Positions 5,497-43,748 of a DNA stretch of 64,000 bases are shown here, piece by piece. Both the position numbers and the translations under genes were made by a program. The notes below the pieces were generated by a model. The model had not been told where the DNA came from, searched no databases, and saw nothing but the letters and a program-made list of their open reading frames with translations. Location of the stretch: NCBI GenBank assembly GCA_902578305.1, contig CACHCK010000001.1:1-64000 (forward strand), read 5' to 3'. This DNA comes from an uncultured Pelagibacteraceae bacterium. GTDB taxonomy: Bacteria; Pseudomonadota; Alphaproteobacteria; Pelagibacterales; AG-422-B15. Each line of letters starts with the position of its first letter. Within the stretch, counting starts at the first letter, position 1.

Positions 5497-7142
5497 CTTG
5501 CTCTATAAAAACTGGTCTCTACATCAGGTAAAGTTTCTTTTTTAAGGATGAGATCAGATGCCTTTTCAGCGATCATTACAGTTGTTGCATTGAGATTTCC
5601 TGTAATGATATTTGGCATTATTGAAGCATCTACAACTCTTAAATTTTCAATCCCATAAACTTTGAGCTCTTCATCGACAACAGATAACTCATCTTTACCC
5701 ATCTTGCATGTACAAGAAGGATGATAAGCAGTATCACCTTTATTTTTAATGAATTCATTTAAATCACCTTCAGAGCTTGAATTTATTCCAGGGTTAATTT
5801 CTTTTCCTCGATATTTATCAAAAGCTTTTTGATGAAAAATTTCCCTTGCAATTTTAATACCATCTCTCATTTCTTTTAAATCATGCTCTGTCTGCATATA
5901 ATTAAACTGTATAGCGGGTGAAGCTGAGGGATTGTTTGACTTTAATTTGACATGTCCTCTACTTGTTGGCCTCATTGGTCCTACATGCGCTTGAAAAGAA
6001 TGAGAGCTTGGAGATTGTCTTCCATGATCCAATACAAGCGATGGAAAGAAGTGATACTGAATATTAGGATAATCAACCATATCATTACTTCTCACGAAGC
6101 CGCCTGTCTCTAAGTTTGAATATGCTGCCACTCCAGATTTAAAAATAAACCACTCTATCCCTATGAATGCCATTCTTATTGGATTATATGATGTGTAAAG
6201 TGTAACGGGCTTTGTACACTCATATTGTAAATAAGTTTCAAGATGATCCTGTAAATTTTCACCTACACCTCTTAGGTCATGTTGAACAGAAATATCTAAT
6301 TTTTTTAGTTCTTCAGCATTTCCTATACCTGAAAGCATTAGAAGTTGAGGTGAATTTATTGCTCCAGCTGATAATATCACTTCATTTTCAGCATGTATTT
6401 TTTTTCTCTCTCTTCCTGTAGTACATTCAACCCCAACGGCTTTATTATTTTCAATAATAACTTTGTTTACTATTGTATTTGTAATAACGGTAAGATTTCT
6501 TCTGTTAATAACTGGATGCAAGTAAGTTACACTCGTACTCTGTCTTCTGCCTCCATAAATAGTGGTATCCATTAGACCAAATCCCTCTTGCTTATATCCA
6601 TTCATGTCATTATTTATCTCATAGCCGGCTTGTTCTGCTGCTTCTAGGTAGACCTTACTCAATTCATTGCCCTCTGAAGATCGAGATAATTTTAAAGGAC
6701 CGCTTTTATTCCTATAAGTTTCATCTAATCCTTCAATTGACTCTGATTTTTTAAAATAAGGAAGAACATTATTATAATTCCATGACTTAAGATCTTTTTG
6801 AGCCCAGTTTTCAAAATCCATTGGATTTCCTCTTACATGAACCATACCGTTGTGTGATGAACTTCCTCCCAACATCTTTCCTCTTGGGCAAAACATTTTT
6901 CTATTGTTCATGAACGGTTCAGGCTCAGTTTCGTATAAATAATTATATTTTGGGTCATGCATTGTGTATAATAAAGCTGCTGGCATTGAGGTTTTCCATG
7001 TTTTATCCGATGGACCTGACTCTATTAACAATACATTTATCTCTGGATCAGCTGAAAGTCTATTTGCCAGAACACAACCCGCACTTCCGGCACCAATAAT
7101 AATATAATTATAAGAATTAAATTGCATAACTAATTTTACCAA
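5493..7142 (-). CDS. GMC-family oxidoreductase (choline dehydrogenase-like)
   Basis: [21 protein letters not shown] motif, GMC signature PRGKMLGGSSSHNGM, C-terminal NLRVVDASIMPNIITGN. Confidence 0.9.
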   Translation of the reverse strand: MVKLVMQFNSYNYIIIGAGSAGCVLANRLSADPEINVLLIESGPSDKTWKTSMPAALLYTMHDPKYNYLYETEPEPFMNNRKMFCPRGKMLGGSSSHNGMVHVRGNPMDFENWAQKDLKSWNYNNVLPYFKKSESIEGLDETYRNKSGPLKLSRSSEGNELSKVYLEAAEQAGYEINNDMNGYKQEGFGLMDTTIYGGRRQSTSVTYLHPVINRRNLTVITNTIVNKVIIENNKAVGVECTTGRERKKIHAENEVILSAGAINSPQLLMLSGIGNAEELKKLDISVQHDLRGVGENLQDHLETYLQYECTKPVTLYTSYNPIRMAFIGIEWFIFKSGVAAYSNLETGGFVRSNDMVDYPNIQYHFFPSLVLDHGRQSPSSHSFQAHVGPMRPTSRGHVKLKSNNPSASPAIQFNYMQTEHDLKEMRDGIKIAREIFHQKAFDKYRGKEINPGINSSSEGDLNEFIKNKGDTAYHPSCTCKMGKDELSVVDEELKVYGIENLRVVDASIMPNIITGNLNATTVMIAEKASDLILKKETLPDVETSFYRAS

Positions 7143-7171
7143 AGTTTGTAATTATAGTACAACATAAGCTT

Positions 7172-8050
7172 ATGTTAAAAAATTTAAACCCCAATTATGC
7201 AATTGTACTTTCAACATTATTGTGGGGTACGTGGTGGTATCCATTAAGGCTACTTAATGAATATGCATATAATAATGCAATTCCGCTCACTTTAAGTTTC
7301 ACTATTGCTGGGTTATTTTTATTATTTTTTTCATACAAAAATATATCAAAATTAACTAATCGAAATTTAATTCTTACAATAGTCGCAGCTTCAGCAGGAG
7401 CGGCTGCAATGTGTCTTTATAATGAAGGTTTAATTAGAGGTAATGTTGCAAGAGTCTTGATCTTTTTTTATTTAACAGCTGTATGGAGCACTTTAATTGA
7501 AATTATTTTTCTAAGAGCGGCCTTAAACATTTATAGGTTTTTTTCAATTTCTTCAGGTTTTATAGGTCTGTTTATTATAACTGGGTTGGATCAAGGAAAT
7601 TTTATGCCTAGCACACTTGCAGATCTGTTTGGAATTCTCTCAGGATTTCTCTGGTCAATCTGTGCAACACTCATAAGAATAAATGAGGAACTTGATGTAA
7701 ATTTCGGTACTTCAGTTTTTATTTTAATTGGGGGTCTTTTTGTTGTTATTGCAACATTCTTACCAGATGGGCAAATACTTTCAGGATTTAACTATGATAT
7801 TTTAAAGAATACTATTTTGATAATTTTAATATTCGCATTTATCTGGTTATTGCCAGGTTACTGGCTTGTCACCTATGGTCAGGATCAAGTTGATCCAGGA
7901 CGCGCGGGGATCCTATTGATGTTTGAAGTTGTTATTGGCGTTATATCTGCCTATCTGCTTGCAAATGAAATAATCTCGATTAGAGAGTTTATTGGTGCAA
8001 TATTCGTAATGAGCGCACCATTAATCGAGATCTATTCAGTAAAAAAATAA
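7172..8050 (+). CDS. EamA/DMT-family transporter
   Basis: About ten hydrophobic segments, DMT-like length and layout. Confidence 0.75.
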   Translation: MLKNLNPNYAIVLSTLLWGTWWYPLRLLNEYAYNNAIPLTLSFTIAGLFLLFFSYKNISKLTNRNLILTIVAASAGAAAMCLYNEGLIRGNVARVLIFFYLTAVWSTLIEIIFLRAALNIYRFFSISSGFIGLFIITGLDQGNFMPSTLADLFGILSGFLWSICATLIRINEELDVNFGTSVFILIGGLFVVIATFLPDGQILSGFNYDILKNTILIILIFAFIWLLPGYWLVTYGQDQVDPGRAGILLMFEVVIGVISAYLLANEIISIREFIGAIFVMSAPLIEIYSVKK

Positions 8051-8134
8051 TTAAATCAGACGTTTATCTAATTAATTACGTAACATAATTTAATTTTTTT
8101 TTATGTGGAAGCGCCTACATATATATGTTTCAAT

Positions 8135-8140
8135 TATAAT
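8135..8140 (+). promoter_or_regulatory. putative -10 box (TATAAT) upstream of the substrate-binding protein gene
   Basis: TATAAT 25 nt upstream of ATG; AGGAG ribosome-binding site at 8155-8159. Confidence 0.45.
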
Positions 8141-8165
8141 GTAAGATATAAATTAGGAGTTTAAA

Positions 8166-9182
8166 ATGAATAAATTTTTTAAAAAATCTGCAATTGGAAT
8201 ATTTTTAGCAGGTTTTGCAGTTATTTTTGCAGTTAGTTGCGACAGGAATCAGGAAGTAGCTGATTGTGGCACAATTACTGTCGCAGAAATGAATTGGGCA
8301 TCAGCTGAAATGTTTGCTCATGTAGATAAAATAGTATTAGAAAATGGGTATGGTTGTAATGTTGAACTTGTACCCGGCGATACTATGCCAACAGCAACAT
8401 CAATGATGGAAAAAGGTGAGCCGGATGTAGCTCCTGAACTCTGGATTAATTCAGTTCGTATAGCTCTAGATAATGCAGTAGGTGAAGGTCGTTTGCATTA
8501 TGCGGCTGAGGTACTGTCTGACACTGGTGAAGAAGGATGGTGGATTCCTCAGTACATGGCTGATGCAAATCCTGATATCCAAACGGTTTATGACGTTATA
8601 GAGCGCCCTGAACTTTTCCCTCATCCGGAAGGTGGAGATGGAGCAATTTATACATGTCCATCAGGTTGGAACTGTCAAATTAGTACCGGAAATCTCTTTA
8701 AAGCGTATGATATGGAAGCAAAAGGATGGAGACTAGTTGATCCTGGATCAGGTGGTGCATTAGCTGGTGCTATCGGTGAAGCATATAATAAAGAAGAGGG
8801 ATGGCTAGGATACTATTGGGCTCCTACAGCAGTTCTTGGCAAATATCCACTTAAGAAACTAAGCTTTGGCGTTGAACACAGTAAAGAAGAGTGGGACACT
8901 TGTACTTCTCAAGACGGATGTGCAGATCCAAAACCTAACGCATGGGTTGTTTCTGAAGTATACACTGTTGTAACTGATAACTTTAAAAATAGTTCTGATC
9001 TTGGAATGGAATACATTTCAAAGAGAGCACTTCCAAACAGCACTGTTAATGCTTTATTAGCTTGGAAAGATGAAAATCAAGCATCTGGCGAAGACACAGC
9101 TATACATTTTCTGAAAAACTATACAGAATGGCACAGCTGGGTTGACGGTAATGCGAAAGCTAAAATTGAAGCAGCGTTATAA
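8166..9182 (+). CDS. proX: glycine betaine/choline/proline-type ABC transporter substrate-binding lipoprotein (OpuAC/ProX family)
   Basis: Signal peptide with VSC lipobox; OpuAC-like architecture; followed by permease and ATPase genes. Confidence 0.85.
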   Translation: MNKFFKKSAIGIFLAGFAVIFAVSCDRNQEVADCGTITVAEMNWASAEMFAHVDKIVLENGYGCNVELVPGDTMPTATSMMEKGEPDVAPELWINSVRIALDNAVGEGRLHYAAEVLSDTGEEGWWIPQYMADANPDIQTVYDVIERPELFPHPEGGDGAIYTCPSGWNCQISTGNLFKAYDMEAKGWRLVDPGSGGALAGAIGEAYNKEEGWLGYYWAPTAVLGKYPLKKLSFGVEHSKEEWDTCTSQDGCADPKPNAWVVSEVYTVVTDNFKNSSDLGMEYISKRALPNSTVNALLAWKDENQASGEDTAIHFLKNYTEWHSWVDGNAKAKIEAAL

Positions 9183-9198
9183 TTAAAAAAATAATATT

Positions 9199-9222
9199 GC
9201 GGACTATAGAAATATAGTCCGC
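9199..9222 (+). promoter_or_regulatory. perfect 10-bp stem with GAAA tetraloop in the proX-proW intergenic region
   Basis: GCGGACTATA-GAAA-TATAGTCCGC, no following T-tract. Confidence 0.8.
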
Positions 9223-9230
9223 ATATTTAT

Positions 9231-10127
9231 ATGAACTTTACCGAATTTTTTATTTCATTTCCTGAAATGAGTAAGGAGAGTCTTCGCTTATTCAAGAAGT
9301 CTCTTGATGGCGCTTACCGAAACTTTTCACGTGAATATGGCGATACAATTGAAGCGGTTTTTGATCCAGTGCTTTATTTCTTAGTATGGTTTGAAAAAAT
9401 ACTACAAAATTCTCCATGGCCTGTCGTAATAATCGTTTTCTTATTATTGATTTATTATGGAAGTAGAAGTATCGCTCTAACTATTTCATCTTTAATTGCT
9501 TTTTTATTAATTGGATATTTTGGAATGTGGGATGATACGATGTCCACAGTCAGTATTATTGGTGTTTGCACACTAATGTCTATCGGCCTAGGTATACCAA
9601 TTGGCATATTAATGTCAGGATCTGATAGGGCGAGAGCCGCAATTACTCCAATTTTAGATATTATGCAAACGATGCCAAGTTTTGTGTATCTCATTCCAGT
9701 TGTTATGTTATTGGGTATTGGTAAAATTCCTGGTTTACTTGCAGTTATAATCTATGCAATCCCGCCAATAATTCGACTTACTGATCTTGGTATTAGAGAA
9801 GTTAATAAAGAAGTTTTAGAAGCCGCAGATGCATTTGGTGCAAATAGAACTCAAAAATTATTTAGAGTACAGCTTCCATTAGCTTTACCAACAATTTTCG
9901 CTGGTATTAATCAAACAATAATGATGGCACTTGCAATGGTAGTTATTGCTTCAATGATTGGGGTTAAGGGATTGGGGCAACCAGTCTTAAAAGCCATCAC
10001 CAATCAATATTTTACAATGGGCCTTCTCAATGGTTTGGCTATTGTAGCTTTGGCGATCATATTTGACAGGGTTTCTCAGTCATTTGGCAAAAGAATGCAG
10101 CAATATAGGGCTGGCGCAAATGAGTGA
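9231..10127 (+). CDS. proW: glycine betaine/proline ABC transporter permease
   Basis: Binding-protein-dependent permease EAA-type motif EAADAFGANRTQKLFRVQLPLALPTI. Confidence 0.9.
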   Translation: MNFTEFFISFPEMSKESLRLFKKSLDGAYRNFSREYGDTIEAVFDPVLYFLVWFEKILQNSPWPVVIIVFLLLIYYGSRSIALTISSLIAFLLIGYFGMWDDTMSTVSIIGVCTLMSIGLGIPIGILMSGSDRARAAITPILDIMQTMPSFVYLIPVVMLLGIGKIPGLLAVIIYAIPPIIRLTDLGIREVNKEVLEAADAFGANRTQKLFRVQLPLALPTIFAGINQTIMMALAMVVIASMIGVKGLGQPVLKAITNQYFTMGLLNGLAIVALAIIFDRVSQSFGKRMQQYRAGANE

Positions 10128-11145
10128 GATAAAGATTAAGATAGAAAATTTGTATAAAATTTTTGGATCAAGACCAAGAGAGTACACAGACATAGTTAGA
10201 GATGGTGTTGATAAAGACGAGTTATTATCAAAATATAATCATGTTCTTGGGTTGGATAATATTTCTCTAGATATCAAGGAGCATTCAATACAAGTTGTAA
10301 TGGGATTATCAGGGTCAGGAAAATCTACTTTGATAAGACACATTAATAGATTGATTGAGCCAACCGAGGGAACGGTCACAGTTGATGGAGAGGATATTAC
10401 TAAACTTAATAAAATGGATCTTCTAGAGTTTAGAAGAAATAAAACAGGGATGGTTTTTCAACGCTTTGCACTATTTCCTCATCAAAATATATTAGACAAT
10501 GTCCAGTTTGGATTGAGCATAAAAAATCTAGATAAGTCAGACTCTATAGAAAGAGCAATGTACTGGATCGAAAAAGTTGGTTTAACCGGTTTTGAAAATA
10601 AATTCCCAAATCAATTGTCAGGAGGAATGCAGCAAAGAGTAGGATTAGCTAGGGCGTTAGCTACTGATCCAGATATATTGCTAATGGACGAAGCCTTTAG
10701 TGCGCTTGATCCATTAATAAGAACTGATATGCAGGACCAATTACTGGACTTACAAAAGAATTTAAATAAAACAATTATGTTCATAACTCATGACCTCGAT
10801 GAGGCACTAAAATTAGGCGACCGAATAGCTATACTCAATGGCGGAAAACTTGTTCAAGATGGAAATGCAGAGGAAATTCTTTTAAAACCCGCTGATCAAT
10901 ATGTGGCCAATTTTGTTAAGGATGTTAATCGTATAAAGGTTTTAAAAATCAAGACAATTCTTGACCAAGGAGGTGAACGAGCAAATTCTAATCCAACTGT
11001 AAACGTAAATGATAGTATTGAAACTTGTTTGCCGGCAATACTTGAAAGTCAATCCGGTCTTAACGTAATTGATGAGAAAAACAATTTTGTTGGCTCAGTA
11101 TCAAAAAACAAAATTATAGACATTTTGCAAAAATCTAAGGATTAA
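10120..11145 (+). CDS. proV: glycine betaine/proline ABC transporter ATP-binding protein (corrected start; track start 10063)
   Basis: Walker A GLSGSGKST, signature LSGGMQQRVGLARA, C-terminal CBS-like region; ATG 10120 overlaps proW stop. Confidence 0.92.
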   Translation: MSEIKIKIENLYKIFGSRPREYTDIVRDGVDKDELLSKYNHVLGLDNISLDIKEHSIQVVMGLSGSGKSTLIRHINRLIEPTEGTVTVDGEDITKLNKMDLLEFRRNKTGMVFQRFALFPHQNILDNVQFGLSIKNLDKSDSIERAMYWIEKVGLTGFENKFPNQLSGGMQQRVGLARALATDPDILLMDEAFSALDPLIRTDMQDQLLDLQKNLNKTIMFITHDLDEALKLGDRIAILNGGKLVQDGNAEEILLKPADQYVANFVKDVNRIKVLKIKTILDQGGERANSNPTVNVNDSIETCLPAILESQSGLNVIDEKNNFVGSVSKNKIIDILQKSKD

Positions 11146-11160
11146 TTCTACTGAATTTTT

Positions 11161-13569
11161 TTATTGCCTTAAATTTTTACCGGTTTGGTCATAACAAGCA
11201 TTATCAATAATTGAGGCATTATAAAACTCTCCATTTATTTCAACTTGCAAAACTTCTTTGGATTTTAATAAATCATTGTTCAAGTATGCAAAAGCAATAC
11301 TTTTTTGCACATAGTGGCCGAAGCCTCCAGATGTTACATATCCGATACATACTTCATTCTGCATAACAGCTTCATTGCTAGTCACATCTATGTTGTCAGT
11401 TTCAATTACCAAGGAAAATAATCTGTGATTGCTATCATCTTTAACTGCAGCGTCTTTACCAATAAAATCTTTATCCCAATTTATAAATGCAGAAAGGCCA
11501 GTTTCTTTTGGAGTATAGTCAGGTCTAAAATCTAGTGTCCATGCGCCCCAATTTTTTTCTAGTCTCATAGACATCAAAGCTCTTCCGCCAAAAGGTTTAA
11601 TGTTGAATTCTTCTCCTGCATCCTCAATAGCCTCATACAGCTTGATTTGATAGTGTGGAGCTACATATATTTCATATCCCAATTCTCCAGTAAATGACAA
11701 CCGGTTGACTAATGCAGGAACACCAGCAACAAACATTTGTCTAGAATCTCTAAATTTAAATGACTCATTAGAAACATCTTCTCTTACCAATAATTGCAGT
11801 AAATTTCTAGACTTTGGGCCAGAAATAGCAAGGCCGTGATAATCATCAGATCTGTTTTTATAAATGACCTCATATTGATCTAGATGTTGTTCAAACCATC
11901 GTCGATGCATTTCCTGAGCGGCACCAGATCCATAAACCATAAAATGATTTTCACTAATACACGAAACTGTAAGGTCCCCATATAATTTACCTTTTTTAGA
12001 TAGCATTGGACTTAGTGCTATGCGTCCAACTTTAGGTATTCTACCTGCCAAAATATAATCCAAAAATTTTCTTGAGTCTTTTCCCTTAAATTCATGTTTA
12101 GAAAAATTAGCAATCTCTGTTACTCCAACGTTTTCTCTTACATTTTTTACTTCATTTGAAACATAGTTATGGGATCGAGAGCGCTTGATAGTTGGTTCTT
12201 CGTAAGCATCATCAGGATTATCAGCAAACCATAGAACATTTTCGAGTCCAAAGCTGTCACCCATAACTGCTCCCATGTTAACGAAGCGATCATATAAAGC
12301 TGTAGTTTTTTGTTTCCTTCCTTTTGGTAAAGTCTCATTTGGAAATGTCATAATAAATCTTCGTTCATAATTTTCAGATGATTTAATTGTTCCATAATGT
12401 GGAGATGCATAATCACCAAACCGTGCGACATCCATCGCCCAAACATCTATGGAAGGTTCACCATCAATAATCCATTCTGCAATACATTTGCCAACACCTC
12501 CTCCTTGACAGAACCCGGCCATAACACCGACTGCTACCCAATAATTTCTCATACCTGGAACTGGTCCAATGAGAGGATTTCCATCAGGACCAAATGTAAA
12601 AGGGCCGTTAACAATATTTTTAATTCCTGCTTTTTCCAAAGCTGGCATTCTCTCAAAACCAATGACTAATCGATCTTGAATATTTTCTAATTTTGGTTCC
12701 AACAGTTCATGTCCAAAATCTAATGGGGTTCCCTGAACTTTCCAAGGAGTAGACTTATGTTCATATGTGCCAAGCAACATGCCTTGTCCTTCTTGTCTAA
12801 AATAGATATTACCATCAAAATCAGTTCCAACTGGTAGCCTTGTTCCCTTAGGCATCGCTGCTATTTCTGGAATTGTATCAGTGATTAAATAATGATGCTC
12901 CATTGGCTGTACAGGCAAATTTAATCCAGCAAGTTTACTGACCTCTCTCGCCCAAAGTCCTGCAGCATTAATTACAATTTCTGTATGAATATTGCCCTTA
13001 TCAGTAAACACATCCCAGGTTCCATCTTCTCTTTGCTTAGTGTCTTTAACCTCAGTATTTGTGTAATAGTTAGCGCCATGAACTTTTGCAGATTTTGCAA
13101 ATGCATATGTGACACCTGATGGATCTACTTCTCCATCGATCGGATCCCACAAAGCTGAAATATATTTATTGGGATCGATAAGAGGATTTTTTTTTGCAAC
13201 CTCCTCTAATGAGATAAACTCTTGATCAAGACCCATATATCTGGCTTTTGTTCTTTCTCTTTTAAGATAATCAGACCAAACTTCATTAGAGGCTAAATAA
13301 AACCCTCCACTTGGTTTAAAGCCAACTGAATGACCTGAAGTCTCTTCAATTTCCTTGTACAAGTTTATTGTATATGCCATCAGTCTGGATATGTTTGGAT
13401 CTGAAGAAATGACATGAACGTTTCCTGCGGCATGCCATGAGGATCCTGCTGTTAATTCTTTTCGCTCAAGGAGAACGCAGTCCTTCACCCCAAACTTTGC
13501 TAAATGGAAAAGAATAGAGCAACCTACAACTCCCCCGCCAATAACAACAACTTTAGCATGAGTTTGCAT
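11161..13569 (-). CDS. FAD-dependent dimethylglycine (or sarcosine) dehydrogenase with C-terminal GcvT-like domain
   Basis: VVIGGGVVGCSILFHLAKFG Rossmann motif, GSSWHAAG flavinylation-site region, GcvT-like C-terminal half. Confidence 0.88.
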   Translation of the reverse strand: MQTHAKVVVIGGGVVGCSILFHLAKFGVKDCVLLERKELTAGSSWHAAGNVHVISSDPNISRLMAYTINLYKEIEETSGHSVGFKPSGGFYLASNEVWSDYLKRERTKARYMGLDQEFISLEEVAKKNPLIDPNKYISALWDPIDGEVDPSGVTYAFAKSAKVHGANYYTNTEVKDTKQREDGTWDVFTDKGNIHTEIVINAAGLWAREVSKLAGLNLPVQPMEHHYLITDTIPEIAAMPKGTRLPVGTDFDGNIYFRQEGQGMLLGTYEHKSTPWKVQGTPLDFGHELLEPKLENIQDRLVIGFERMPALEKAGIKNIVNGPFTFGPDGNPLIGPVPGMRNYWVAVGVMAGFCQGGGVGKCIAEWIIDGEPSIDVWAMDVARFGDYASPHYGTIKSSENYERRFIMTFPNETLPKGRKQKTTALYDRFVNMGAVMGDSFGLENVLWFADNPDDAYEEPTIKRSRSHNYVSNEVKNVRENVGVTEIANFSKHEFKGKDSRKFLDYILAGRIPKVGRIALSPMLSKKGKLYGDLTVSCISENHFMVYGSGAAQEMHRRWFEQHLDQYEVIYKNRSDDYHGLAISGPKSRNLLQLLVREDVSNESFKFRDSRQMFVAGVPALVNRLSFTGELGYEIYVAPHYQIKLYEAIEDAGEEFNIKPFGGRALMSMRLEKNWGAWTLDFRPDYTPKETGLSAFINWDKDFIGKDAAVKDDSNHRLFSLVIETDNIDVTSNEAVMQNEVCIGYVTSGGFGHYVQKSIAFAYLNNDLLKSKEVLQVEINGEFYNASIIDNACYDQTGKNLRQ

Positions 13570-13571
13570 TC

Positions 13572-14612
13572 TTAAGGTGTGAATTCTTTATTTACCTGCT
13601 TAAGAGTTTCGTCTGTTCCATGGTGAAAATGTTTTCTCATGTCCGGCATATATTTCATCGAAATTGGTTTTTTACCAACTGCAACTGACATTTCTCTCAC
13701 GTGATGTGCTTCGGCGCCACAACAAATTCCAATAAAATTGATATTTTTTTCCATACAGTCTGCAGCAAATTTAGCCATTTCAAAACGATTACAAAAAAGA
13801 TTATCCAAGGCTACAGGAAATGCATTATTTCCAGGAATACAATCACATCCATCATCAGAAATATTTAAAAAACCAGGTTCCTTTTCTGTTGTTCGATAAG
13901 GCACTGGCAATCCAGCAACATGGCAAGATACTTTATCTCTTACTTTTTCTAGAAGTTTCATAGTCATATCTGGCCCTCTATAACAGTTTAAACCAACGAC
14001 ATTTGCACCCAAGTCTTCCATCATTTTACATGCATCTTCAGGTGTATGTCCTTCTCTTGTCTTATCTCCCCTGGGTATCGCAAAATTTGTAACTGCAATC
14101 ATGCCTTCATCTTTGATTGCTTTTAGAGCAATTTTCATTTCCTCAGTCCAATTAATTGTCTCAGCGACAATAAAATCAACTCCCGCTTCCTTTGCCCACG
14201 CCACTTGTTCCTCATACATTTTCTGACATTGAATAAGAGATTGTTTATCATTTGGATCATAAATATTTGTATTTGCTACATCTCCACAAACCATAAGATC
14301 TAAATCATTATATTCATTAGCTGCATCTTTTGCAATTTGAAGAGCATTTTTCTGTAAAGACTCTAATAAATGTTCTTTCCCAATTATTCTTAATTTTTCT
14401 CTATGGCCATAATAAGTGAAAGCTTGGACGACATCAGATCCTGCTCTTATAAATTCTCTATGTAATTGAGTAACAACTTCTGGGTGCTCTAAAACAACTT
14501 CAGGAACAAATCCTCCTGCGGATAAGTAACCTCTTCGTTCCATGGCGAATAAATAACCTTCAGCACAAATGATTGGTCCCTCATTTAATCTCGTTATCAG
14601 ATCTTTTTTCAT
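13572..14612 (-). CDS. betaine-homocysteine S-methyltransferase family protein
   Basis: AGSDVVQAFTYYGHREKL, GLNCYRGP and GICCGAEAHHVR zinc-thiolate motifs; next to DMGDH. Confidence 0.87.
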   Translation of the reverse strand: MKKDLITRLNEGPIICAEGYLFAMERRGYLSAGGFVPEVVLEHPEVVTQLHREFIRAGSDVVQAFTYYGHREKLRIIGKEHLLESLQKNALQIAKDAANEYNDLDLMVCGDVANTNIYDPNDKQSLIQCQKMYEEQVAWAKEAGVDFIVAETINWTEEMKIALKAIKDEGMIAVTNFAIPRGDKTREGHTPEDACKMMEDLGANVVGLNCYRGPDMTMKLLEKVRDKVSCHVAGLPVPYRTTEKEPGFLNISDDGCDCIPGNNAFPVALDNLFCNRFEMAKFAADCMEKNINFIGICCGAEAHHVREMSVAVGKKPISMKYMPDMRKHFHHGTDETLKQVNKEFTP

Positions 14613-14723
14613 GAATGCACTCCTAATTTATTCAAACAATAAATAAAAAATTATACCTAATTTAATATTCTGTCGAATTAAAAAAATGACAAGGCTATTC
14701 TTTTTTGGAATGAATAAGCATTT

Positions 14724-16094
14724 CTAATTTGAAAACAAACGCTCATCAAGCGGATAAGTAGAAATCGTTTCGTAACCATTATTTGTTACGACACCCTGAT
14801 CCTCAAGCTTGACCATGTGGTCCCCATTAACTTCACCCACCAAAGCCTCGACACAAAGAGTCAGTCCTGGTTCCAGAACAGCGTCAAAGGCATTTTTAAC
14901 CAAACGGTCTGGGTAGGCGATCAATGGCCATTCGTCACACATCCCGACACCATGCATAGGTGATGAATACTTGAGCGCCTGATACTTGTCCTGCAACACG
15001 TGCAAAGAATGAGTTAAGTCTTCCATGTGGAGGCCGGGCTTGAGAAGCCTTGTGTTATAGCGAATGTGTTCTACTGCCTCTGCATAACTCTCGCGCATAT
15101 TAGCTGGCGCTAAACTATCTCCAATCCACCAGGTACGACTGAGATCTGCACAAATCCCATAGGGGCCGATCAAATCAGTATCAAAAGCAAGAATTTCGTT
15201 CTCAGATATGATCCTTGGCCCACATTCTTGAAACCATGGGTTGGTGCGTGGCCCTGAAGTAAGCAGTCTTGTCTCAATCCACTCGCCACCTCTTTTAATA
15301 TTTTCTGCATGGAGTACCGCCCAAACATCATCCTCTGTCACACCACCTTTTGGAATTTCTGAGCGTGCAAACTCCTCCATAACTGCCATCGAGCGTTCAC
15401 AAGAATAAATAGAACAGCGCATTGCTCGTAATTCGTGCTCGGTTTTGATAGCTCGTGCACGTTCTGTCACTTCCTCACCGTCACAGTACTCAAGCCCTGC
15501 TCGACGGACCGCATCTAAACCTGCAGGCTGAATTTTGTCTATACCGACTTGTGTACAACCTGGAGCGTGAGTGGCAATTAAGTCTAGTACCTCAGCTGCG
15601 AAAGCGTCAGCTGCTGGCCCAATCCGGTCACCACGGGCGAAGTAAAACATGTCCGCACCTGAGCGGCTCTCCCGAACAAGTGGATTGTATTGGGCGAGGA
15701 ATGGTGCGTTTTTATAATCCCAGAGTACCATATACCCATCAGCACAAAGCAAGCACGCCCGGAACGGATTGTGGGTGTTCCACAACTGCATATTTGTCGT
15801 GTCAGTTGCATAACGAATATTAAGGGGATCAAACATCAATAAGCCCCCATAACCCCTGGCTACAATTGCATCAGTCAAGCGTTTGTGTCTGGCTTTGCGC
15901 ATCTCAGTCAGATCTGGCAATATAAGCCCTGCATCTTGCCATTCAGCATAGGCTAATGCAGTTGGGCCAATTTCGACACGATCGCCATCATTGATTGTTC
16001 CATCGCCCAGATGCACCCCCTGGCTTGGGTCTATCTTATGATTATCGCTGTAGTAATTATTTATATTTGGTAATATTTTACGATTTATCTTCAT
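14724..16094 (-). CDS. dddP: DMSP lyase DddP (M24 metallopeptidase-fold)
   Basis: Recalled DddP motifs: IDPS.G..LGDGT.ND.DR.EIGPT, FDPLNIRYATD.TNMQLWNTHNPFRA, GGEWIETRLL.SGPRTNPWFQECGPRI, FDTDLIG.YGIC.D.SR.WWIGD, HGVG.CDEWPL. Confidence 0.93.
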   Translation of the reverse strand: MKINRKILPNINNYYSDNHKIDPSQGVHLGDGTINDGDRVEIGPTALAYAEWQDAGLILPDLTEMRKARHKRLTDAIVARGYGGLLMFDPLNIRYATDTTNMQLWNTHNPFRACLLCADGYMVLWDYKNAPFLAQYNPLVRESRSGADMFYFARGDRIGPAADAFAAEVLDLIATHAPGCTQVGIDKIQPAGLDAVRRAGLEYCDGEEVTERARAIKTEHELRAMRCSIYSCERSMAVMEEFARSEIPKGGVTEDDVWAVLHAENIKRGGEWIETRLLTSGPRTNPWFQECGPRIISENEILAFDTDLIGPYGICADLSRTWWIGDSLAPANMRESYAEAVEHIRYNTRLLKPGLHMEDLTHSLHVLQDKYQALKYSSPMHGVGMCDEWPLIAYPDRLVKNAFDAVLEPGLTLCVEALVGEVNGDHMVKLEDQGVVTNNGYETISTYPLDERLFSN

Positions 16095-42226: not shown

Positions 42227-42303
42227 GGCGGGGTAGCTCAGTTGGTTAGAGCGGAGGAATCATAATCCTTAGGTCGGGGGTTCAAATCCCTCTCCCGCTA
42301 CCA
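42227..42303 (+). tRNA. tRNA-Met(CAT), elongator-like
   Basis: GGCGGGG/TCCCGCT acceptor, anticodon loop ATCATAA, GGGGTTCAAATCCC T-arm, encoded CCA. Confidence 0.93.
42262..42303 (+). repeat. attL-like 42-bp direct repeat (3' part of tRNA-Met)
   Basis: ATAATCCTTAGGTCGGGGGTTCAAATCCCTCTCCCGCTACCA identical at 43707-43748. Confidence 0.95.
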
Positions 42304-42536
42304 AATTTCGGTAGGTTTTCCAGTCCAAACTCTCTTTTGTAAGATTTTCGCCATAACTAATGTTTGCAAGTTGGGACAGTTTTGTGACAACTGGTGCAGT
42401 TGGTGCTAACCAAAACCAACAAAAACAAGCAGTTGCAAAAAGATTGAACAATCAACTACGGATTTGATTTATGTAATTGAATTGATTGGATAAATTGATT
42501 CTACAATGTTATAAATCAACACGAACTCTAGACTAG

Positions 42537-42596
42537 CCCCTAATTGATATAGGCACACCTGAGGACTACTATAGAGCAATTGAAATAGAAAGAGAT
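42537..42596 (+). pseudogene. truncated C-terminal fragment of a sugar nucleotidyltransferase (approximate ends)
   Basis: Frame reads PLIDIGTPEDYYRAIEIERDYANK; in-frame TAG at 42534 immediately upstream. Confidence 0.55.
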
Positions 42597-42597
42597 T

Positions 42598-43464
42598 ATG
42601 CAAATAAAAAAAAAAAAAGAAAATCTAAAAGTTTTAGTCACTGGTACAAGAGGATCACTTGGAAAAAGCTTATTTCGCTCTTTAAAACAAAATAATATTA
42701 AAGTTTATGAGGCTGATATAGTAGATCGCAGCAACACAATTAATCTTTTGAAAGATTATGATCTAGATGAATTTAATATTATTTACCATTTAGGAGCAAG
42801 CAGTAAAAGAAGTGATAATATTATTGATATTGTAAATAAAAATTTATATGCCACAGAAAAATTATTCAATAAGGCGAGCAAAATTAAGCAGATAAAAGTT
42901 ATATTTGCTTCTGCAAATTCTGTAGTAAGCTCTAGGCATCATAAGCAAATAGATATGAACACTCCTTTCAGTGCAAAAGAATTCTATAGTAGCTCTAAAC
43001 TTATGGGTGAGGGTTTACTAATAAATTATCTTGGAAGAGATAGAAGTTCGATCATAAGATTGCCTGCGATTTACGGGATAATCAATAACAAAGAAGGACT
43101 GATTCATAGATTAATTGAGTTATCAAAAAAAAATAAAGATATAGTTATAGATTATCCAAATTGCCTTTTCAATAATGCAATTACTTTATCTTGCGTTGTA
43201 GATTTTTTTACAAAGATTTTAAATAACATTAATCAAATCAATGGAAAAGATTTTCTAATTGCAGCTGACAGTGAAATAAGCTTAATGTCGATGGCAGAGA
43301 GAATAATTAAAAGAATGAATTCTAAATCAAATATAATAACTAAAAGTAATATTCAGTCAAAAAATATGAATTACATAATTGATACATCGGCTGCAAAAGA
43401 ATTTGGATTTAAACCCGAAAAGATGATAGATATAGTTGATATGGTTTGTGCAAACTATGAATAA
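42598..43464 (+). CDS. NAD-dependent epimerase/dehydratase (extended SDR)
   Basis: KVLVTGTRGSLGKSLFRSL, YHLGAS, FYSSSKLMGEGLL (Y..SK context), IIRLPAIYG. Confidence 0.85.
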   Translation: MQIKKKKENLKVLVTGTRGSLGKSLFRSLKQNNIKVYEADIVDRSNTINLLKDYDLDEFNIIYHLGASSKRSDNIIDIVNKNLYATEKLFNKASKIKQIKVIFASANSVVSSRHHKQIDMNTPFSAKEFYSSSKLMGEGLLINYLGRDRSSIIRLPAIYGIINNKEGLIHRLIELSKKNKDIVIDYPNCLFNNAITLSCVVDFFTKILNNINQINGKDFLIAADSEISLMSMAERIIKRMNSKSNIITKSNIQSKNMNYIIDTSAAKEFGFKPEKMIDIVDMVCANYE

Positions 43465-43706
43465 AATTACTTCAAAAAAGTTAGCATATTTTGGAGGTAG
43501 GCTACGCATATATCTAACAGTTCTGATTCTACTGATACACCTGTGACACTTTTGGGACACTTTGTATTCGAGGTCATTAGACTCCATTCGATTCTACAGA
43601 TCAATATAAAACTTTTGTAAAATTGTAGATTTGCAAGAACTTGCAGTTCGGATTCAATTAGTTCAAAGAGTTAAATGTTTTGCAAGAAACGACTCTTTTT
43701 ATTATA

Positions 43707-43748
43707 ATAATCCTTAGGTCGGGGGTTCAAATCCCTCTCCCGCTACCA
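43707..43748 (+). repeat. attR-like 42-bp direct repeat of tRNA-Met 3' end
   Basis: Exact match to 42262-42303. Confidence 0.95.

Follow-up and report, generated by a model that had tools for sequence, protein, structure and literature searches.

Structure of the tRNA-Met island

The window, a 64-kb stretch of DNA from a bacterium of the genus AG-422-B15 (Pelagibacterales), carries an intact tRNA-Met(CAT) gene followed by a short island that closes with a displaced copy of the 3' half of the same tRNA. The same tRNA-Met sequence recurs without change in 37 further genomes of the family. As the first-pass annotation had reported, an exact 42-bp repeat lies at the 3' end of the tRNA gene (42262-42303) and again at 43707-43748, with a spacing of 1445 bp; none is expected by chance (100 shuffles). 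If one mismatch is allowed, the repeat reaches 45 nt (42259-42303 and 43704-43748), and this single mismatch of the right copy falls just outside the exact 42 bp. The features of the locus, including stretches shared with elements in three other genomes (G027, G033 and G038), are as follows.

42227..42303, + strand: tRNA-Met(CAT), intact (ARAGORN), with the left attachment site in its 3' half
42259..42303, + strand: left att core, anticodon loop to CCA (exact 42-bp part 42262-42303)
42304..42536, + strand: element's left end, with homology to the G038 left end (nucleotide match and global alignment)
42371..42389, + strand: left putative pair of arm-type sites TTGGGACAGTTTTGTGACA, located 68 bp inside the island (motif match; the offset is likewise 67-68 bp in G027, G033 and G038)
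42537..42608, + strand: gene scrap PLIDIGTPEDYYRAIEIERDYANK, starting where the left-end homology ends (42536)
42598..43464, + strand: NAD-dependent sugar epimerase/dehydratase, 288 aa, open frame (Pfam PF01370 Epimerase, E=2.7e-14)
43529..43706, + strand: element's right end, with homology to its counterparts in G027, G033 and G038 (nucleotide match)
43541..43559, + strand: right putative pair of arm-type sites CTGTGACACTTTTGGGACA, at a distance of 154-165 bp to the right att (G027, G033 and G038 have the same spacings, 165/154)
43704..43748, + strand: right att core, displaced tRNA-Met 3' half (exact part 43707-43748)

The island spans 42304-43748 and consists of a 1403-bp interior and the right att copy. 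Only one substantial ORF was found in the interior, and neither a recombinase ORF in 42304-43706 (ORF list and Pfam scan) nor a phage gene in the island was detected, so that the earlier description of about 1.4 kb with one epimerase gene and no recombinase holds. The island has a G+C content of 29.7%, compared with 33.8% for the window; this difference was given no weight as evidence of origin. The window's own island is known from one genome only. No tRNA duplication was found at the other two tRNA genes of the window.

Occupancy of the site within the genus

The locus was oriented in the uncultured relatives of the same genus that have a match to the tRNA-Met, and a tree of the flanks was built. 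The site is polymorphic: both the empty and the variable forms that the first-pass annotation had named as the signs to look for in relatives are present. It is empty in 26 genomes of the genus, in which the downstream glycosyltransferase gene ends at most about 22 bp from the tRNA, and occupied in nine genomes, the window included. The inserts differ from one another, which fits the proposal that cargo is exchanged at this site. A clear second att is present in six genomes (the window, G027, G033, G038, G001 and G015).

Window: 1.4 kb, epimerase cargo, clear second att
G027 and G033: 1.2 kb, glyoxalase cargo, clear second att
G038: 5.6 kb, intact integrase, clear second att
G001: 1.3 kb, hydrolase-like cargo, att with 1 mismatch, arm sites gone
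G015: 0.7 kb, methyltransferase, att with 2 mismatches
G009: methyltransferase related to that of G015, att badly eroded and barely recognisable
G032 (locus L039): 1.9 kb, NeuB-like and cytidylyltransferase-like ORFs (named by eye), without recognisable att
G020 (locus L047): 0.85 kb, short-chain dehydrogenase-like, without recognisable att

The last two inserts may be either eroded islands or products of another insertion mode. Between G015 and G009, the methyltransferase inserts show 82% identity and the neighbouring genes 71%, pointing to transfer of this insert across the genus. At a further locus (L046, in G013) the additional sequence lies 5' of the tRNA-Met, where a degenerate tRNA-Met copy is followed by roughly 2 kb containing a single gene for a coiled-coil-like protein of 597 aa and then by the intact tRNA-Met; this arrangement is readable as a 5'-side insertion that brought or regenerated the whole tRNA.

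The neighbour of the window in the flank tree, G021, has an empty site and aligns with the window without a gap from the tRNA into the right flank; after the right att core, the window returns to the empty-site sequence of G021. The insertion in the window is therefore precise. Most assemblies available for this genus are single-cell or metagenome-assembled genomes, where amplification chimeras occur, and a duplicated tRNA half could in principle be such a chimera, as the first-pass annotation had cautioned for the repeat. However, several independent genomes share the structure: the second att occurs at the same place in six genomes, the ends of the elements keep a conserved geometry, and the nearest relative has a precise empty site. 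With five genomes besides the window carrying a second att at this site, and with the precise empty site, we rejected an amplification or assembly artefact, to which we assign a negligible probability.

An integrase-bearing relative and shared element ends

The 5.6-kb element of G038, inserted at the same att, encodes a 459-aa protein that matches Pfam Arm-DNA-bind_3 (E=5.5e-8) and a PHROG integrase family (E=4.6e-25), and in which candidate catalytic R, K, HxxR and Y residues are readable. In the elements of G027 and G033 the integrase is cut to approximately its first 90 codons, with the same truncation in both. The window's island retains homologous stretches of about 230 bp on the left and about 180 bp on the right. 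Its left end is 78% identical to that of G038 over 42369-42536 (E=2.5e-28), and global alignment of the left ends gives 74.8% identity over 226 aligned positions, compared with a shuffled mean of 61.7%. Its right end is 75% identical to that of G027 over 177 bp (E=1.2e-25) and 91% identical to that of G038 over 66 bp (E=2.6e-20). These related ends support derivation of the window's island from an integrase-bearing element by replacement of the interior.

Within the right end, a 29-bp block at 43576-43604 of the window, ATTAGACTCCATTCGATTCYACAGATCAA, is almost invariant in four elements whose surroundings differ by about 25%; the block is perhaps a further protein-binding site, e.g. for an excisionase. 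The G038 element (locus L032) also contains four small adjoining ORFs, each with the start MKHLLSI and a signal-peptide-like N-terminus, and may encode a winged-helix protein. Among those of its ORFs that were scanned, none was recognised as a relaxase or conjugation gene; most of the ORFs match nothing known.

Putative arm-type site pairs

A paired motif, TGKKACAnTTTTGKKACA, with an 11-bp period is present at both ends of all four elements (window, G027, G033 and G038). Its offsets are constant, at 67-68 bp on the left and 154-165 bp on the right, even though the elements measure 1.2, 1.4 and 5.6 kb. Only two motif pairs occur in the 64-kb window, both of them in the island, and none in shuffled sequences. 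Two pairs per genome were found in 4 of the 397 genomes of the order, which are precisely the four genomes named above; the other 15 genomes with a hit have single matches of the TGTTACA type. In IMG/VR contigs, similar pairs 207-230 bp apart flank cores that resemble tRNA 3' ends, with recombinase-like ORFs (judged by eye) alongside; no similarity of these ORFs to the G038 integrase was detected by phmmer. Because similar pairs flank tRNA-end cores in viral contigs, the pairs of the island are very likely integrase arm sites, in keeping with a phage-type attP. Altogether, the precise empty site, the integrase-bearing relative at the same site and the retained arm-type sites agree with the footprint of tyrosine-recombinase integration originally proposed for the repeat.

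All four arm sites of the window carry G where all sites of G027, G033 and G038 carry T, and the viral examples include the TGGTACA, TGGGACA and TGTGACA types. This concerted change at both ends, which was noticed after the fact, suggests a match to a different integrase rather than random decay.

Cargo of the island

The epimerase contains the Rossmann motif GTRGSLG and a YxxxK motif, both read from the sequence. At E<=1e-15, none of the 396 other genomes of the order gave a match to it. The search for a donor covered 397 genomes of the order and 385 of the class and yielded nothing close, the best proteins being 24-27% identical; among phages the best matches, from Flavobacterium phages, are only 27% identical.

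The scrap PLIDIGTPEDYYRAIEIERDYANK that precedes the epimerase is probably the C-terminus of an HddC-type sugar nucleotidyltransferase. This assignment comes from a PDB sequence match whose statistics are weak owing to shortness: the best match of the 27-aa query is to C-terminal residues 209-222 of 6jq8 (E=0.017), a protein of the 6-deoxy-mannoheptose pathway. The scrap is too short for a Pfam or NCBIfam match, and none was obtained. A scrap followed by an epimerase gene looks like what the capture of a polysaccharide-operon fragment would leave.

Probable movement of an integrase-truncated sibling

The elements of G027 and G033 are 99.0% identical over 1204 bp, whereas their flanks are 91-93% identical (binomial P about 2e-26). 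The non-coding ends of the two elements differ at 6 positions in 487 bp. On the right side, mismatches resume at the first base after the att, with six differences within 20 bp. In the flank tree G027 and G033 are not sisters, and genomes with an empty site lie between them; at an unrelated locus the two genomes are 88% identical. Since the elements are more similar than their flanks, the identity switches at the att and the hosts are not sisters, there is strong support for a recent movement of the truncated-integrase element between genomes. Forms of this element family that lack an integrase, or have a defective one, would accordingly be counted among those that move.

The main alternative for the identity of G027 and G033 is RecA-mediated exchange via the tRNA and the 45-bp att. 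In its general form, this explanation treats the tRNA and its partial duplicate as short homology at a recombination hotspot, where cargo is exchanged by RecA without site-specific recombination. The approximately 128 identical bp upstream of the G027 and G033 islands, which include the tRNA, would fit such an exchange, as would the patchy near-identity seen elsewhere in the window. However, homologous recombination would have had to stop exactly at the first base after the att on the right side. The integrase-type ends moreover recur in G038, although the mnmA genes of G038 and G000 share only 72% identity, and G038 has a bona fide integrase at the same site. We consider it very improbable that homologous recombination accounts for the island.

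Elsewhere in the window, a 9-kb region (6500-15500) is 99.3-99.5% identical to G001, G031 and G041, whose mnmA genes are 7-8% different from that of the window. The region contains a substrate-binding protein/permease/ATPase transporter cluster (8166-11145) and a gene for an 802-aa oxidoreductase-like protein, and it looks like a recent homologous-recombination patch or sweep.

Search for a helper integrase

The first-pass annotation had suggested looking in the genome for an integrase that matches this tRNA. None was found in the assembly of the host (94.6% complete): the only candidates are two generic Phage_integrase genes, both on contig C4, which we take to be XerC/XerD-like. Any mobility of the island would therefore depend on the integrase of another element. 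The G038 integrase had no match in IMG/VR (by a pattern search, which reaches close relatives only), INPHARED or PLSDB, and neither the att core nor the conserved right-end block was found in IMG/VR. For the arm-site variant of the window, these searches identified no integrase.

An island without a helper in its own genome could also be a decayed remnant, in which the integrase was deleted, the epimerase was gained by illegitimate recombination, and the product is now an immobile, eroding relic. The site does display a series of erosion (G001, G015, G009, and then G032 and G020), and a leftover piece of a second gene is what one would expect of chance capture. Against this, the att core and all four arm sites of the window persist with exact spacing and a concerted change, the epimerase is intact, and an equally integrase-defective sibling appears to have moved recently. 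Decay is an appreciable but still unlikely explanation. Of the three origins first offered for the island, namely a decayed island, a satellite mobilised in trans and a site of cargo exchange, each fits part of the data; the apparent recent movement of the sibling favours mobilisation in trans over simple decay.

Proposed mode of mobility

We therefore prefer to read the island as a CIME/MITE-like integrative cassette that is non-autonomous and relies on an integrase acting in trans, at a probability of roughly 0.7. Its ancestor would belong to a family of small elements with a tyrosine recombinase whose specific target is the tRNA-Met gene of AG-422-B15. The integrase and accessory genes would have been swapped for about 1 kb from an apparent surface-polysaccharide operon, while both att cores and both putative arm-site pairs were kept. 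The arm sites would be bound by the integrase of a relative that either shares the cell or has newly entered it, and the two tRNA 3' halves are predicted to recombine and release a circle. This circle would then insert at the tRNA of another cell, the tRNA being regenerated each time. We infer that the window's copy is still able to excise; its helper may be a so far unsampled integrase that recognises TGKGACA arms, and passage from cell to cell could be, for instance, by phage particle, vesicle or transformation.

Comparison with known systems

In CIMEs, integration and transfer genes have been lost and attL and attR kept (PMC5704250). The window's island is similar in that it retains att cores and putative arm sites without an integrase. 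However, the cassettes described here are only 1.2-1.4 kb long with one gene, the 5.6-kb parent has no recognisable conjugation genes among the ORFs scanned and is no known ICE, and the evidence here points to solo movement by an integrase acting in trans rather than to accretion beside an ICE.

Typical tRNA islands are far larger than the island of the window. As outlined for Islander, a tyrosine integrase targets a tRNA gene, and the regenerated tRNA and a displaced fragment mark the ends of a genomic island (PMC4383910). The window has the intact tRNA, the displaced fragment and the empty site in relatives but differs in having no integrase gene inside the island.

Hitcher elements such as MITEs and CALINs keep recombination sites, have lost the recombinase and are mobilised by the enzyme of a helper (PMC11389934). 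In contrast to these, the enzyme in the present case is an integrase of the phage type with tRNA specificity, and the element has complete att sites and arm sites enclosing a protein-coding gene.

Phage satellites of the PICI/PICMI type have phage-related genes and are packaged by a helper phage. In the window's island no phage gene was detected, the ORFs of the G038 element are largely without known function, and neither the att core (IMG/VR) nor the G038 integrase (IMG/VR, by the pattern search for close relatives, and INPHARED) was matched in viral sequences.

Two systems of streamlined aquatic bacteria are closer in setting. The additive flexible genomic island of Ca. Methylopumilus at tRNA-Lys, as presented in PMC10872708, holds cargo of 330 bp to 42 kb beside repeated tRNA ends, and shares with our locus the variable cargo next to tRNA ends; its repeat, however, is 20 nt long and varies in copy number, and the part of PMC10872708 that describes it gives no integrase family, arm sites or donor-recipient comparison. 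Tycheposons are introduced in the same source as cargo-carrying elements that measure 4-200 kb and have a tyrosine recombinase and a tRNA (PMC10872708); they occur in Prochlorococcus and are also reported in Methylophilaceae, with tRNA-Met among the used sites. They resemble the present family as tRNA-adjacent tyrosine-recombinase elements, but the window's island, at 1.4 kb and without a recombinase, falls outside their definition.

Implications for gene gain in the SAR11 order

A wider reading, which we put forward tentatively and consider rather doubtful, is an integron-like exchange that operates on a phage-type integrase. Single-gene cassettes of 1-1.5 kb, with complete att sites and with arm sites tuned to several integrase specificities, would circulate at one tRNA-Met site, the integrases would reside in few cells, and surface-polysaccharide and other genes would be delivered singly.

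Bacteria of the SAR11 order have very small genomes, few recognised mobile elements and a gene content that varies between cells. If the island is mobilised in trans as we propose, kilobase cassettes without the burden of their own integrase would let genes be gained at low cost, and they would easily be overlooked by island finders keyed on an integrase. The arm-site signature provides a sequence handle for finding more such elements, and the pair of elements in G027 and G033 allows a direct test of movement in trans.
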